DNA from: SAR202 cluster bacterium
GTDB lineage: Bacteria; Chloroflexota; Dehalococcoidia; Lucifugimonadales; UBA826
NCBI GenBank assembly: GCA_009392815.1
Contig: VFFS01000057.1
Coordinates: forward strand, 1-63,957
Length of the DNA stretch: 63,957 bases
Direction: 5' to 3'
A program made the translations under genes and the position numbers. The notes beneath the pieces were generated by a model that saw nothing but the letters and a program-made list of their open reading frames with translations, made no database searches and had not been told where the DNA came from. Of this stretch, positions 39,851 through 50,367 are shown in pieces; position 1 is the first letter of the stretch; every line of letters begins with the position of its first letter.

Positions 39851-41491
39851 TCAGAGCAAATTCAATTCTGCGTAGGAATTAGAGGCAACCTCATCGCATC
39901 GTTCACGATAAGAAGCTTGGCTGCCACTGTATCTTGCGAGGATTCTTTTTTGTCGACCTTCCAGGTTGCTATTTACGCCAGTCATCCAGGAATCAATCTG
40001 GTTGGACAGAAGCCCCTCGCCTTGTTCCACTACATAGTTGTACCAACTGTCGACAGCCTCGGGGGTTGCCTCTGCGCGAGTAAGGCCTCTTTCCCTCATG
40101 AAATCGATCAATGTCGTGATCCATTCAACGTTGTATTCGATACTTCTGGGATTGTTGCCTAGTAAAGCATGAGGGCCAAGTATCATAAATAGGTTCGGGA
40201 AATTGTTTATCTGGATTCCTAGGAAACTGGATAACTCCTGTTTCCACTGGTCCCGTAATTTCTGTCCGTTCGTCCCTTCTATGTTGATCCTGTCATAACT
40301 TCCCAATATTGCGTTGAATCCAGTCGCATATATTATGAAGTCGAATTCAAAATCCTTTTCCTGGGTAACTATTCCACTAGGAGTGATCTGCTCTATAGGA
40401 TTTTCGTTTATATCAACAAGCTCGACGTTGTCCTGGTTGTAGGCTTCGAAGTATTTGGTTTCCATTGGGACTCGCCTAGTCCCAAAACCATGGTCTTTCG
40501 GGATCAATTTTTCTGCCACATCTGGATCGTTTACTCGTGATCTGATTTTATCAGCTAGAAAATCTGACATTAATTTATTGGCTTTTGGGTCTGTGGCTAC
40601 ATCTTTGAAATTACCCATCCATATGCCGAAACCTCTACCGGCATATAAATGTTCCCAAAATTCGTATCTTTCTTTCTCTGTGACTTCGAAAGTGCTTCTG
40701 GGGTCGACCGTGTGTAGAAAGCCTGCCTGTGTTTGGTTACACAGGTCGAACATATCATCGTATCCGGATCTGATTTTGCCCATTTCTTCGGGATTAATTT
40801 TGTCATTATTTAGGGGAGCAGACCAGTTCGGACGTCTTTGAAATACGGTGAGTTGTCCAACGTCTTTACAAATTTCCTGTATGGCCTGGATTCCACTTGC
40901 GCCAGTACCGATTACTGCCACTTTTTTGTTTGAAAAATCCACCGGTTCATGAGGCCATCTCGATGTGTGAAATGATGGGCCCTGAAAAGATGCGATGCCT
41001 TCAATTTTAGGCATTGTGGGTTGGGAAAGTAGACCTATACCAGCTATTAGAAACCTCGTTCTATACTTACTGCCATTTTCTAAGGCGATTTCCCAGGTTC
41101 GGCTATGTTCATCATAAATGGCAGATTTAACATCACTTGAAAACTGGATGTCTTTTAGGAGATCAAATTTGTTTGCAACGTGCTGCAGGTAACGAAGAAT
41201 TTCCGGTTGTGAAGCAAAATGCTCGGACCAATCCCATTCGTCCAAAAGTTCCTGAGAAAAAGAATAAGCATACGAATAACTCTCAGAATCAAATCTTGCT
41301 CCTGGGTATCTGTTCCAATACCAAGTTCCGCCAACACCAGTACCTGCTTCAAATACTCTGACATTTAATCCGAGCTCTCTCAACTTATAAAGTTGATATA
41401 GACCAGCTATACCTGCCCCAATCACAATGGCGTCATAGTCCGTTTTGATGTCTTGAACAGTCTGACCAGATGCTGTCACAGATTTCCTCAC
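39851..41491 (-). CDS. Flavoprotein monooxygenase of the Baeyer-Villiger (cyclohexanone monooxygenase) type
   Basis: A 546-residue class B flavin monooxygenase that uses FAD and NADPH to oxygenate ketones to esters or lactones. The FAD loop GAGIAG is at residues 25-30, GTWYWNRYPGARFDSES is the typical CHMO-like stretch, the Baeyer-Villiger fingerprint FxGxxxHxxxWP occurs as FQGPSFHTSRWP near 168-179, and GTGASGIQ binds NADPH. The C-terminal half carries YATGFNA. The fingerprint separates it from plain N-hydroxylating monooxygenases. Substrate is unknown. It is upstream of an SDR and downstream of an MFS carrier on the same strand. Confidence 0.93.
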   Translation of the reverse strand: MRKSVTASGQTVQDIKTDYDAIVIGAGIAGLYQLYKLRELGLNVRVFEAGTGVGGTWYWNRYPGARFDSESYSYAYSFSQELLDEWDWSEHFASQPEILRYLQHVANKFDLLKDIQFSSDVKSAIYDEHSRTWEIALENGSKYRTRFLIAGIGLLSQPTMPKIEGIASFQGPSFHTSRWPHEPVDFSNKKVAVIGTGASGIQAIQEICKDVGQLTVFQRRPNWSAPLNNDKINPEEMGKIRSGYDDMFDLCNQTQAGFLHTVDPRSTFEVTEKERYEFWEHLYAGRGFGIWMGNFKDVATDPKANKLMSDFLADKIRSRVNDPDVAEKLIPKDHGFGTRRVPMETKYFEAYNQDNVELVDINENPIEQITPSGIVTQEKDFEFDFIIYATGFNAILGSYDRINIEGTNGQKLRDQWKQELSSFLGIQINNFPNLFMILGPHALLGNNPRSIEYNVEWITTLIDFMRERGLTRAEATPEAVDSWYNYVVEQGEGLLSNQIDSWMTGVNSNLEGRQKRILARYSGSQASYRERCDEVASNSYAELNLL

Positions 41492-42949: not shown

Positions 42950-43175
42950 TCTAAAGCATTTCAATTTTGGAAATAAAAACCAGAGGAAAACGATTTTAGG
43001 TGTAAAAATGGTGGTGGCTGCATAGATGTGTCCGGTGCCATTCTCCAAAGTGAGCCATTGAGGTGAAAGTGTCTATATAAAGTGACTACAGCTTTGGGCT
43101 GATGGACTTGAAACAGCTAATTGATTATCCTGATCTCCTATATTGCGACCTGTTACCAGTGGGAGGTCCCGAAGT

Positions 43176-44432
43176 ATGAACATCAAGTTGCGTCGGCATG
43201 CCAAACCCCGCGTCACAGCTGCGGAAATGTACCAAGTGAAAGAATCATATGTTCGTTTTAATCAGAAAGATCATATGGGCTCGCAGATGGTGTGGGACGC
43301 TCAACTCAAGGCTGAACGGGATAAACTAAAAGTCAAGCAACGACAGCTTACTGAAAAGGGGCGCCCCGGTTTCGAGGCTACTGCGTGGAGCCTTGATGCT
43401 GCTGCAGACTCTCTGCTATCTCTTATGGACTTTTCAAAGAATCAGGCGGACGCTCCAGCTACTGCATGGCAATCCGAGGTGGAGCCCTCGCCGATGGGTC
43501 GACCGAGCACTTCCCCTAAAGAAGCATCTCAGATTGTGCGTAAGGCTGCTCATTTGTTCGGGGCGGATCAAGTTGGCTTTGCCGAACTGGACCGCCGATG
43601 GGTGTACTCCCATTACTTCGATTTGGAGACGAAAAAGGATTACCCAATAAAGTTCTCAGATGAACCCGGCTATGAGCAATACGACCATCCCATTTGCCTT
43701 GAAGATGGGACACGGGTGATCCCTAAGGAGATGAACAACGTCGTCGTGTTACTACACGAATGGGGCAAGGATGTGGAAGGTACGGATTATGCCCCGGCTC
43801 TGCTAACTGAGGGTCTAAGTACTCTGGCATATGCCCGAATGGCGCCTACTCTGTGGATGCTGACCGAGTTTATACGGGGATTGGGGTACAATGCCATCCC
43901 CGCAGCCAATGACACGGCTTTAAGCATTCCTCTGGCCGTCGATGCAGGTCTCGGTCAGCTAGGGAGACATGGCCTGTTAATCAACCCTAAAGTGGGATCA
44001 CGCTGCCGTATCTCAAAAATATTCACCGATCTTCCGCTTGAGGCATTAGGGGCAGTGGACTCGGGTATAACTGAATTCTGCAACGCATGTTTGAAATGTG
44101 TACCGAAGTGCGGTACTGAAGCTATTACAACAGGCAACCGCGGGTTCGAGGCTTTGGGTGAGAGTAATGCTTCGGGAGTATTAAGCTGGAAGGTAGATGC
44201 TAAGAAGTGCATGACCTTCCAAATCCGTGTCGGGACTACCTGTAGTACCTGCGTCCGTAGGTGCGCATGGACCAAACCCCCCAGAAGAAGATACGCTGTG
44301 CCTCGCTTCTTTATAAGGAACTTTCGGTGGCGATGGTTGAACAAATCATGGGTGTGGCTTGACGATAAGTTAGGACATGGAAAGTTTGACAAGCAGCCTG
44401 ATGACTTTTGGGAGACTAACTACTCAAATTGA
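43176..44432 (+). CDS. Reductive dehalogenase-like corrinoid/Fe-S protein without Tat signal
   Basis: A 418-residue protein that resembles the catalytic subunit RdhA of reductive dehalogenases. The cobalamin-domain hallmark NDTALSIPLAVDAGLGQLGRHG and SRCRISKIFTDLPLE precede two Fe-S motifs: C302, C305, C308, C312 (CNACLKCVPKCG, usually CP) and C345, C356, C359, C363. These arrangements fit RdhA better than the queuosine enzyme QueG. There is no twin-arginine leader and no rdhB anchor gene beside it, so it is probably cytosolic. The ATG at 43176 has GGGAGG nine bases before; a TTG at 43143 is unlikely. It is visibly richer in GC than its neighbours and ends near two tRNA genes, hinting at transfer. 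Substrate unknown. Confidence 0.85.
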   Translation: MNIKLRRHAKPRVTAAEMYQVKESYVRFNQKDHMGSQMVWDAQLKAERDKLKVKQRQLTEKGRPGFEATAWSLDAAADSLLSLMDFSKNQADAPATAWQSEVEPSPMGRPSTSPKEASQIVRKAAHLFGADQVGFAELDRRWVYSHYFDLETKKDYPIKFSDEPGYEQYDHPICLEDGTRVIPKEMNNVVVLLHEWGKDVEGTDYAPALLTEGLSTLAYARMAPTLWMLTEFIRGLGYNAIPAANDTALSIPLAVDAGLGQLGRHGLLINPKVGSRCRISKIFTDLPLEALGAVDSGITEFCNACLKCVPKCGTEAITTGNRGFEALGESNASGVLSWKVDAKKCMTFQIRVGTTCSTCVRRCAWTKPPRRRYAVPRFFIRNFRWRWLNKSWVWLDDKLGHGKFDKQPDDFWETNYSN

Positions 44433-44544
44433 AGCCATTGTCAGATCAATTAACGTTGATATGAAGCTGAATAAGATGAACCTTGAGAGGCTATTAGGGT
44501 TTCTTGAAGAGATCGGAAAGAACCGATTCTAGGCACGAGAATGG

Positions 44545-44621
44545 TGGTGGGCGATGAGGGACTCGAACCCCCGACCCCTTGCGTGTAAAGCAAGTGCTCT
44601 AACCAGCTGAGCTAATCGCCC
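44545..44621 (-). tRNA. tRNA-Val (anticodon TAC)
   Basis: A 77-nt cloverleaf on the minus strand: acceptor GGGCGAT/ATCGCCC, D arm GCTCAGCTGGTTAGAGC, anticodon stem CTTGC/GCAAG around loop TTTACAC, T arm CGGGGGTTCGAGTCCCT-type, discriminator A and encoded CCA. TAC reads GTA and GTG valine codons. It lies nine bases downstream of tRNA-Arg on the same strand and is probably in one transcript with it. Confidence 0.95.
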
Positions 44622-44630
44622 TGAAAAAAG

Positions 44631-44704
44631 TGCGCTTGGTGGGACTCGAACCCACGGCCTCAGCCTCCGCAGGGCTGCGCTCTATCCAACTGAGCTACAA
44701 GCGC
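44631..44704 (-). tRNA. tRNA-Arg (anticodon GCG), no encoded CCA
   Basis: A 74-nt cloverleaf: acceptor GCGCTTG/CAAGCGC, D arm GCTCAGTTGGATAGAGC, anticodon stem CAGCC/GGCTG around loop CTGCGGA, T arm GTGGG-TTCGAGT-CCCAC, discriminator A. The bases that follow are CTT, so CCA must be added after transcription, unlike the neighbouring tRNA-Val. The GCG anticodon would read CGC and CGU without the adenosine-to-inosine edit that most bacteria use for ACG tRNA-Arg. Confidence 0.9.
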
Positions 44705-45934: not shown

Positions 45935-46051
45935 ATCCTCTTCTCCGCTTCCAAATAGTTTTGGGAATTTTTCGTATGTATAGAACTTATTTAGGTTTAT
46001 ATCATTATCTTTTTGACTGTCGCTGTAACTCTAGTTACCATTTTCGACGAT

Positions 46052-47215
46052 ATGGTTAAAAGTTCAACAATGCCAGTGACGGAAAGTCATTTTATATCTG
46101 TTGCAAGGGGTATCGTACCCCTAATACAGCAGCACGCATCCTCAATTAATCGTGAGCGACAGCTTACAGACAGGGTTTCTGGCCCCATGGCTGATGCCGG
46201 ATTATTCAGGTTGTTGATTCCTAAATCCAGGGGTGGATACGAAATTGATTATCTAGAATTTCTAAAGATTGTTTCGATTATTGCTGAGGCGGACGGTAGT
46301 GTCGCTTGGTGCCTGAATCAGAACAATGTTCTTTCCACTTTGTCTGCCTTCATGCCCGGTAGCTTGGCAGAAGAGATATGGGCTGAACGAAGGGCAGTTT
46401 TGTCCAATGGCCCTCCTGTGAATCCAAAAGCTGTACCAGTGGAAGATGGTTATGTTTTGAATGGTCGTTGGAACTTCAGTAGTGGTTCCCGCCATGCCAC
46501 TTGGCGTGTCGCCTTGACTCCAGTTGAAGGGAGGAAAGGATCTAATGGTCAGTCCGAAGTAAGGAACATGATTGTTCCAGCGGACTGGGTAGAGATGGAA
46601 GATACTTGGCAGGTCAATGGTTTAAGGGGTACTGGCAGTTTCAGCTTTTCTGTTGATGATTTGTTTGTTCCTGAAAGATTAACTTTTATAGATGGTGGAC
46701 CTCCAGAGGTGGAAGGGCCACTTTACATAATGCCTAAAAGCCTATTGTTTTGTTCCGGATTTGCTACGACTGCTCTGGGTGTCGCCAGAGCGGGATTAGA
46801 TTCTGTAATCGAGTTGTCTCGCGCAAAAACACCTCAGGAGCAGAAACTTCTAATGGAGCAACCTTTCACTCAGCGCGAAATAGGCCAGGCAGAGGCTATT
46901 TGGCGATCTGCCAAGGCCTATCTTTCTGACAGTGCGGAATCGGCATGGCACTTTGCGGTGACAGAGGGAGAAATTCCAGTTGAAGAGCGTATTAATCTAC
47001 GATTATCAAGTACGCACGCTATAAGAGAAGCGGTGAAGGTTGCAGATATTGCATATTCATTGACCGGCTCGAGCGCCATATTTGAGCAAACCGCGATACA
47101 GAGAAAATCTCAGGACGTAAGAACTATATCGCAGCAAATTCAAGGTAGATTTTCCCATTACGATACGGCCGGGCAGCATTTCCTCGGCATGAGTCCCCAG
47201 GGCAGACTTTTTTGA
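46052..47215 (+). CDS. HsaA-like acyl-CoA dehydrogenase-fold flavin monooxygenase
   Basis: A protein of about 387 residues in the acyl-CoA dehydrogenase fold, with the C-terminal Acyl-CoA_dh_2 domain of FMNH2/FAD-dependent hydroxylases such as HsaA. MADAGLFRLLIPKSRGGYE and DGSVAWCLNQNNVLS lie in the N-terminal half, RWNFSSGSRHATWRV in the middle barrel, and the end HYDTAGQHFLGMSP is family-typical. Such enzymes hydroxylate aromatic or similar rings and need a separate flavin reductase (compare 31780-32253). Three in-frame starts exist (TTG 46013, ATG 46052, ATG 46070), none with a good ribosome site; I use 46052. The DapA-like gene follows after 28 bases. Confidence 0.87.
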   Translation: MVKSSTMPVTESHFISVARGIVPLIQQHASSINRERQLTDRVSGPMADAGLFRLLIPKSRGGYEIDYLEFLKIVSIIAEADGSVAWCLNQNNVLSTLSAFMPGSLAEEIWAERRAVLSNGPPVNPKAVPVEDGYVLNGRWNFSSGSRHATWRVALTPVEGRKGSNGQSEVRNMIVPADWVEMEDTWQVNGLRGTGSFSFSVDDLFVPERLTFIDGGPPEVEGPLYIMPKSLLFCSGFATTALGVARAGLDSVIELSRAKTPQEQKLLMEQPFTQREIGQAEAIWRSAKAYLSDSAESAWHFAVTEGEIPVEERINLRLSSTHAIREAVKVADIAYSLTGSSAIFEQTAIQRKSQDVRTISQQIQGRFSHYDTAGQHFLGMSPQGRLF

Positions 47216-49333: not shown

Positions 49334-50344
49334 TCAGATGAATTTGCCAATTGATTCGATTATGTTGTGGTAGCCGGCAGCGTCTGGTTCGTTAAATACG
49401 AGACGTATCTCGTCCACTCCATCATCGTAATATCTCTGCATTTGCTCCAGACATTCACTGGCGGAACCTATTAATGCAGTCGCTGATACCATCTCGTCAG
49501 TCACAAGATCAGCGGCTCCCGTCCGATCACGGTCTAAGTATTTTTTTCTGATCGCGTCTGATTCTTCGCCAAAGCCTATTCTGTGCATATATTCATGGTA
49601 AAAGGTTCCCATTCCTCCTATATAAAAGGCGATGTGTGGGCGTTCCCTGTTGAAGGCCTCTTTCTTATCATCCGTAATGTAAATTGAAACCTGAGGAGAT
49701 ACCGTGATGTCTGAGATCGATCTTCCTGTAATGGATGCTCCTGACTTCAATTTATTGTAAGAAGGGGCCATTCGTCCAGGAGAGTAATATATAGGCAGCC
49801 AACCGTCTGCGATTTCCCCGGTCATTTGCAAACTCAACGGAGTAAGAGAGGCTATGAATATAGGTAAGTTATCTCTAAATGGAGTAAACCTTAATCTAAA
49901 ACGTTTGGTGGAAAAAAACTCACCATCCTGATCTAGCCGATCTCCTTTGAGGGCCATACGAATAAAGTTAATGTATTCCCGCATACGAGAAAGAGGTTTT
50001 TCAAATTTCTCACCGTGGAAATCTTCTATGACTAGCTTACCGCTGGATCCGAGACCCAGAAAGAAACGACCTTTAGACATAATGTCCATATTTAGAGCTG
50101 TCATGGCAAGATTCGCAGGAGTTCTTGCGTAAACTGGAACTATACTAGTCCCTATGGATATTCTCTCTGTTACAGCTGCGAGTTGGGCTAGGGAAGTGAA
50201 GGCGTCTTCGCCCCAGGCTTCCCCCATTGTGAGACTACTAAATCCCAGCTGGTCAGCACGGGCCGCCATTTCTTTCGTTACTCCCCAGTCACTCCCGGGA
50301 GGTCTTAGGCCCATTAGCCCGACTTTTCCACCTATTTTTGCCAT
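49334..50344 (-). CDS. LLM class (luciferase-like) flavin/F420 oxidoreductase
   Basis: A 336-residue TIM barrel of the bacterial luciferase superfamily. AARADQLGFSSLTMGEAWGEDAF begins the barrel, TERISIGTSIVPVYARTPANLAM is the cofactor strand, FLGLGSSGKLVIEDFHG is diagnostic, and a C-terminal DEIRLVF strand is present. The pattern is nearer to the F420-dependent methylene-H4MPT reductase-like branch than to NtaA. Substrate unknown. The ATG at 50344 lies nine bases after AGGA. It follows the LDH2-type gene after 23 bases. Confidence 0.9.
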   Translation of the reverse strand: MAKIGGKVGLMGLRPPGSDWGVTKEMAARADQLGFSSLTMGEAWGEDAFTSLAQLAAVTERISIGTSIVPVYARTPANLAMTALNMDIMSKGRFFLGLGSSGKLVIEDFHGEKFEKPLSRMREYINFIRMALKGDRLDQDGEFFSTKRFRLRFTPFRDNLPIFIASLTPLSLQMTGEIADGWLPIYYSPGRMAPSYNKLKSGASITGRSISDITVSPQVSIYITDDKKEAFNRERPHIAFYIGGMGTFYHEYMHRIGFGEESDAIRKKYLDRDRTGAADLVTDEMVSATALIGSASECLEQMQRYYDDGVDEIRLVFNEPDAAGYHNIIESIGKFI

Positions 50345-50367
50345 CTCAGCTTTCCTCATTCATTGGT

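Follow-up and report, generated by a model that had tools for sequence, protein, structure and literature searches.

The locus examined here raises two questions: what kind of enzyme is encoded by an isolated gene for a reductive dehalogenase (RdhA)-like protein in a SAR202 genome, and how did the gene come to lie beside two tRNA genes? SAR202 bacteria are abundant in the dark ocean and are thought to oxidise recalcitrant organic matter, while reductive dehalogenases are best known from anaerobic respiration. The window, meaning the whole stretch of 63,957 nucleotides that was analysed, is one entire contig of a 1.78 Mb assembly (G000, 88% complete). An earlier note made from its letters had proposed an RdhA-like protein with a cytosolic role and a gene acquired from elsewhere. 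Our favoured answer, held with moderate confidence, is that the gene encodes a non-respiratory, cobamide-dependent reductive dehalogenase that was gained horizontally and has spread, at least in part, as a minimal cassette targeted to tRNA and tmRNA genes.

The open reading frame begins with ATG at 43176, ends with a stop codon at 44430-44432 and encodes a protein of 418 amino acids. It is preceded by a Shine-Dalgarno-like site that orthologues keep as (A/G)GGAG(G/T) (Table 1). In profile searches the protein scores above the cut-offs of TIGR02486 (168.2 bits; cut-off 160.35) and PF13486 (38.4 bits; cut-off 24.3). It falls far below that of TIGR00276 (46 bits; cut-off 200), the model for the epoxyqueuosine reductase QueG, with which it shares the cobamide/Fe-S superfamily. 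Among solved structures the best match is PceA of Sulfurospirillum multivorans (PDB 4UQU; E 9.6e-50, aligned over residues 50-404). A tree of 62 proteins places the window protein within RdhA, split from QueG at 100/100 and apart from the NpRdhA/BhbA branch, as part of a compact clade formed by Tat-less proteins of SAR202. The next relatives of this clade, 42-51% identical, belong to other Dehalococcoidia and to a single further Chloroflexota genome. Judged by these comparisons the product is a homologue of RdhA lying outside QueG; the proposed identity, start and length are all upheld, as is the placement that the tree against QueG was meant to check. A dN/dS of 0.04-0.08 against orthologues indicates that the gene is under purifying selection.

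Table 1. Features of the locus, in window coordinates.
Feature	Position	Strand	Basis
FMO/Baeyer-Villiger-type monooxygenase	39851-41491		
Candidate outer att repeat, AATGGTGGTGG	43007-43017	+	Exact copy of 44540-44550; weak
Shine-Dalgarno-like GGGAGG	43161-43166	+	Sequence and comparison of orthologue 5' flanks
rdhA-like gene, without Tat signal	43176-44432	+	TIGR02486 and PF13486 over cut-off, PDB 4UQU PceA match, dN/dS
Tyr219 codon (PceA Tyr246, proton donor)	43830-43832	+	Alignment to PceA
Asn245 codon (PceA Asn272)	43908-43910	+	Alignment to PceA
Arg278 codon (PceA Arg305; Lys in NpRdhA/BhbA type)	44007-44009	+	Alignment to PceA
First [4Fe-4S] motif, CNACLKCVPKCG, CG replacing CP	44079-44114	+	Sequence and clade alignment
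Second [4Fe-4S] motif, C-x10-CSTCVRRCA, CA replacing CP	44208-44267	+	Sequence and clade alignment
Candidate inner att repeat, AATGGTGGTGG, overlapping tRNA-Val 3' end	44540-44550	+	Weak
tRNA-Val (TAC)	44545-44621	-	ARAGORN and Rfam
tRNA-Arg (GCG)	44630-44704	-	ARAGORN and Rfam
HsaA-like flavin monooxygenase	46013-47215		
LLM oxidoreductase	49334-50359		

An AlphaFold model built from 10 near-identical sequences reached a pLDDT of 33, too low for use, and the active site was instead checked by alignment to PceA. Homology to PceA extends over about 350 residues and includes the C-terminal tail. Kunze et al. regard the catalytic tyrosine of these enzymes as the likely proton donor, and it is essential in NpRdhA (PMC5500849). 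The window protein keeps this tyrosine together with its PceA partners as Tyr219, Asn245 and Arg278. All three residues are invariant in an alignment of ten clade members; the NpRdhA/BhbA type has Tyr, Asp and Lys at these columns. The PceA pocket residues Tyr102, Trp376 and Tyr382 are replaced. PceA Trp96 and Glu92 correspond to W71 and E67 in a pairwise alignment but are unmatched in a many-sequence alignment, so this match is unsure. From these residues catalysis looks retained, and the substrate probably differs from that of PceA.

The two four-cysteine Fe-S motifs described earlier keep all eight cysteines (C302, C305, C308 and C312; C345, C356, C359 and C363), which are invariant in the clade. 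The first motif does read CxxCxxCxxxCG where CP would be usual, and the second has lost its proline as well, a change that the earlier note did not mention and that is new here. Clade members with readable motifs have CxxCxxCxxxCG and CxxCxxxC[A/S], the proline missing from both; CP stands at both motifs in almost every other RdhA or QueG protein of the collection. The window protein thus departs from the RdhA consensus of CxxCxxCxxxCP and CxxCxxxCP (PMC6797604) at each motif.

The records that contain orthologues bear the names SAR202 cluster bacterium or Dehalococcoidia bacterium. Within the window's own order, a copy with 79% identity or more along most of its length occurs in 18 of 250 genomes, from several families. 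Some copies are broken (L113/L114 in G589:C35, L109 in G601:C50), one split over two frames and one with an inner TGA. G000 also encodes two further Tat-less RdhA-like paralogues (L023, 1081-2334 of C45; L028, 1021-2313 of C53), which are kept in many genomes of the window's family (f1), score below the reductive dehalogenase cut-off and branch between QueG and RdhA. These have CP/CP motifs and Asp or Trp replacing Asn272, and are possibly a separate enzyme family to judge by these features.

The history of the gene differs from that of its hosts. Between the window genome and G407, of family f13, the protein is 90.5% identical and RpoB only 61.8%. In the RpoB tree f1 pairs with f123; in the RdhA tree the copies from the window and from its congener G004 are nested within f13, the group of four having support of 100/99. 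Forcing the f13 copies into one clade changes the log-likelihood by -66.7 units and is rejected (AU p 1.5e-6). The dS of the window copy is 0.37 to the f13 copy L033 versus 0.47 to the copy of the congener. The gene is also more GC-rich than its surroundings, as had been suspected: its GC content is 0.507, equally long pieces of the window average 0.439 (sd 0.021), and the pieces highest in GC fall on the gene. In the two f1 recipients the gene has a GC content of 0.507 and 0.529 and the flanks 0.438 and 0.440, whereas in f13 and other families gene and flanks are similar, mostly 0.51-0.60, so that the GC content of the window gene agrees with the donor family. Horizontal transfer between SAR202 families is well supported by these comparisons, and the identity gap and AU test place it on firmer ground than composition alone allows. 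Its direction was likely from f13 to f1, because the recipient genes differ in GC content from their flanks and those of f13 match theirs. Contamination is an unlikely source, since host tRNAs stand on the same contig as the gene, which is internal to it, and a single-cell genome obtained independently contains a member of the clade: the match from G004 is also that of the single cell AC-647-P02, L003 being identical to L032 wherever they overlap.

Across the loci compared only the coding sequence is alike, together with roughly 28 leader bases in the nearest ones. The loci of orthologues are otherwise unrelated, with neighbours common only to two close relatives, and no functional neighbours common across the clade were found. 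The copies in G042 adjoin solute-binding proteins, CbiZ lies near L038 and CobA/BtuR near L129, cases too few to count. A leader motif resembling TGTGACAA-N2-TGTTAC lies just 5' of the Shine-Dalgarno site (43124-43166 in the window) and is recognisable in several orthologues; it is perhaps an operator. A viral or plasmid carrier was considered and is not supported: no relative was found in viral contigs, and those in phage and plasmid records are distant.

The gene does end near two tRNA genes, as first observed, and the 3' end of tRNA-Val faces that of the gene across a gap of 112 bases. Three copies abut a tRNA or tmRNA 3' end, namely those of the window (tRNA-Val), G004 (tmRNA; L032/L186) and G443 (tRNA-Met; L040); the first two hosts, members of one genus, have different insertion sites. 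The repeat is clear in the complete genome G443 (OX638324), where the last 29 bases of tRNA-Met and two more recur right after the gene, 30/31 identical. These direct repeats are 1,526 bp apart and enclose rdhA alone, and their score was reached by 0/200 shuffles. In G004 (L032) the tmRNA 3' end recurs 1,592 bp away with 22/27 bases matching, a score that none of 600 random pieces attained. The window candidate, 11 bases repeated 1,533 bp apart, was equalled by 5/600 random 300-base window pieces and is suggestive only as an att site; no other convincing repeat of the tRNA-Val end was found in the window. Fragments of the tmRNA tail flank the f13 copy L033 on either side, though on an N-rich contig; the downstream fragment is about as far from the stop codon as its counterpart in G004. 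Apart from these fragments no tRNA-end repeats were found near the remaining copies, and age or another route must therefore explain them. The repeats in other genomes nevertheless strengthen the hint of tRNA-linked acquisition.

Relatives within f1 keep the tRNA-Val and tRNA-Arg pair, accompanied in most by an M42 peptidase, as well as the tmRNA locus; rdhA is absent from both sites, and the sequence past the tRNA-Val and tmRNA 3' ends varies among them. Synteny of the window with relatives stops at the tRNA-Val 3' end (44527-44545 and leftward), where several relatives have a MoxR-like ATPase operon that was not found in the window. The tmRNA 3' end in f1 is followed by differing genes across genera (L179-L184), a pattern that makes it a possible integration hot spot.

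The closest precedent for this insertion pattern is provided by the ssrA islands of Dehalococcoides, a genus of the same class. These islands carry rdhA cargo, vcrABC among it, at the 3' end of tmRNA, a sequence that recurs as a direct repeat, and some have no integration module; the nearest relative of their integrase is from a deep-ocean fosmid (PMC3146451). The SAR202 unit shares the location and the far-boundary repeat (weak in the window), but consists of one gene in about 1.5 kb, occurs also at tRNA genes and crosses families. No integrase lies between the repeats, rdhA being the only gene inside. Tyrosine integrases are encoded in 12/13 host genomes. Three in G443:C1 (at 1131832, 490630 and 1633964) lie about 800 bp from tRNA genes; they likely mark integrative elements and might supply an integrase in trans.

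It is possible, though on balance doubtful, that the transfer was real and the tRNA sites incidental, the gene having moved by homologous or illegitimate recombination or within larger islands since eroded. Most copies have no tRNA repeat, and the window sequence left of tRNA-Val is unlike that of relatives; the transfer there may therefore have involved more than one gene. Against this, the 30/31-base repeats of G443 bound exactly rdhA, and among the tRNAs of that genome examined no other 3' end is repeated within about 8 kb, barring two adjacent, mutually matching tRNA-Ser genes.

A slightly less probable alternative concerns the chemistry: the protein could be an RdhA-fold cobamide/Fe-S reductase acting on a non-halogen substrate such as an epoxide or an oxidised aromatic. 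The changed pocket and the clade-wide loss of both Fe-S prolines would suit this, as would the oxygenase-rich host genomes. The window neighbours are ordinary SAR202 genes, several oxygenases among them, and the aerobic-looking setting described earlier is visible in the FMO/Baeyer-Villiger-type, HsaA-like and LLM genes nearby (Table 1). The wider superfamily acts on non-halogenated substrates, QueG being the precedent. Work on marine Dehalococcoidia assigns such genes no settled function (PMC7506110). The full PceA-type Tyr/Asn/Arg set, the score over the reductive dehalogenase cut-off and the place inside RdhA in the tree count against a non-halogen substrate.

The protein shows no sign of export or of a membrane anchor, as the earlier note had said. 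A Tat motif is absent from its N-terminus and from every clade member whose N-terminus is intact. Hydropathy averaged over 19 residues peaks at 0.95, which leaves no membrane helix; in the first 110 residues the maximum is 0.76, and the N-terminal membrane helices of hybrid reductive dehalogenases (PMC6797604) are absent. No rdhB adjoins the gene, which is followed by the two minus-strand tRNA genes, and none lies beside orthologues at any locus compared. That the enzyme is respiratory all the same, its Tat signal and rdhB having been missed or encoded elsewhere, is highly improbable: its closest solved relative is the respiratory PceA, with the same Y/N/R set, but Tat signals and membrane helices are absent from all intact clade members and a partner gene from every locus. 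Weakest of all is vertical SAR202 inheritance with loss in most relatives and GC content set by protein constraints, a reading for which patchy presence (2/16 f1 genomes) and broken copies show that losses occur, but which the identity gap and AU test already contradict and which the dS values and the unlike insertion sites within one genus also oppose.

The absence of both Tat signal and rdhB suggests that the enzyme works in the cytosol and outside respiration, on the model of NpRdhA and BhbA, which likewise have neither, have a presumed cytosolic role and come from aerobic marine or soil hosts. Those enzymes differ in their fused reductase domain (about 1,070-1,210 amino acids in the loci read), their Y/D/K set and their separate branch. 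RdhA proteins with neither Tat signal nor rdhB have been described in sediment Dehalococcoidia (PMC4959651) and in marine aerobes (PMC6797604). Among the former, the DEH-C11 RdhA comes from the same class but is described as sister to the NpRdhA/BhbA clade, unlike the window protein, a comparison made by that description and outside our tree. A survey of trench sediment lists SAR202 among the orders with dehalogenating MAGs, in passages that carry no detail on this gene (PMC12750322), and no description of it was found in the SAR202 papers searched in the open-access literature. Judged on that literature, the kind of protein is known; what appears new is the clade with its Fe-S signature, and the one-gene cassette.

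We therefore return to the non-respiratory dehalogenase and its cassette. Two [4Fe-4S] clusters would pass single electrons, drawn from a soluble host donor (ferredoxin, flavodoxin or a flavin reductase), to the cobamide, whose reduced cobalt would take the halogen off an organohalide while Tyr219 donated a proton. B12-binding proteins are present in 13/13 genomes tested. CobS was not found in G000 or in G004 (55% complete), so these hosts may import cobamide. The purpose would be to dehalogenate organic matter ahead of oxidation by host enzymes, or to detoxify. The gene would have reached the window lineage from f13, in a cassette of about 1.5 kb that inserts at tRNA and tmRNA 3' ends with an integrase supplied in trans. 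The lost pocket aromatics and Fe-S prolines and the missing CobS weigh against this reading, as do the shortness of the window repeat, the lack of a repeat at most other copies, the lack of an integrase within the 1.5 kb and, to our knowledge, the lack of a demonstrated activity among close relatives.

More speculatively, and with real doubt on our part, SAR202 may share an integrase-free, one-gene mobile unit of about 1.5 kb that moves between families through the recombinases of other elements at tRNA and tmRNA 3' ends. The cargo enzyme would then represent a new subfamily of cytosolic RdhA, marked by non-canonical Fe-S motifs, whose substrates in oxic sea water would be natural organohalogens. 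The clade offers a natural test of the role of the prolines after Fe-S cysteines. The cassette with its tRNA repeats, if real, would be a very small integrative unit, placing in the marine relatives of Dehalococcoides the mechanism known from its ssrA islands. If SAR202 does have a conserved and mobile reductive dehalogenase of the cytosol, it would link this enzyme class to halogen turnover in oxic water.
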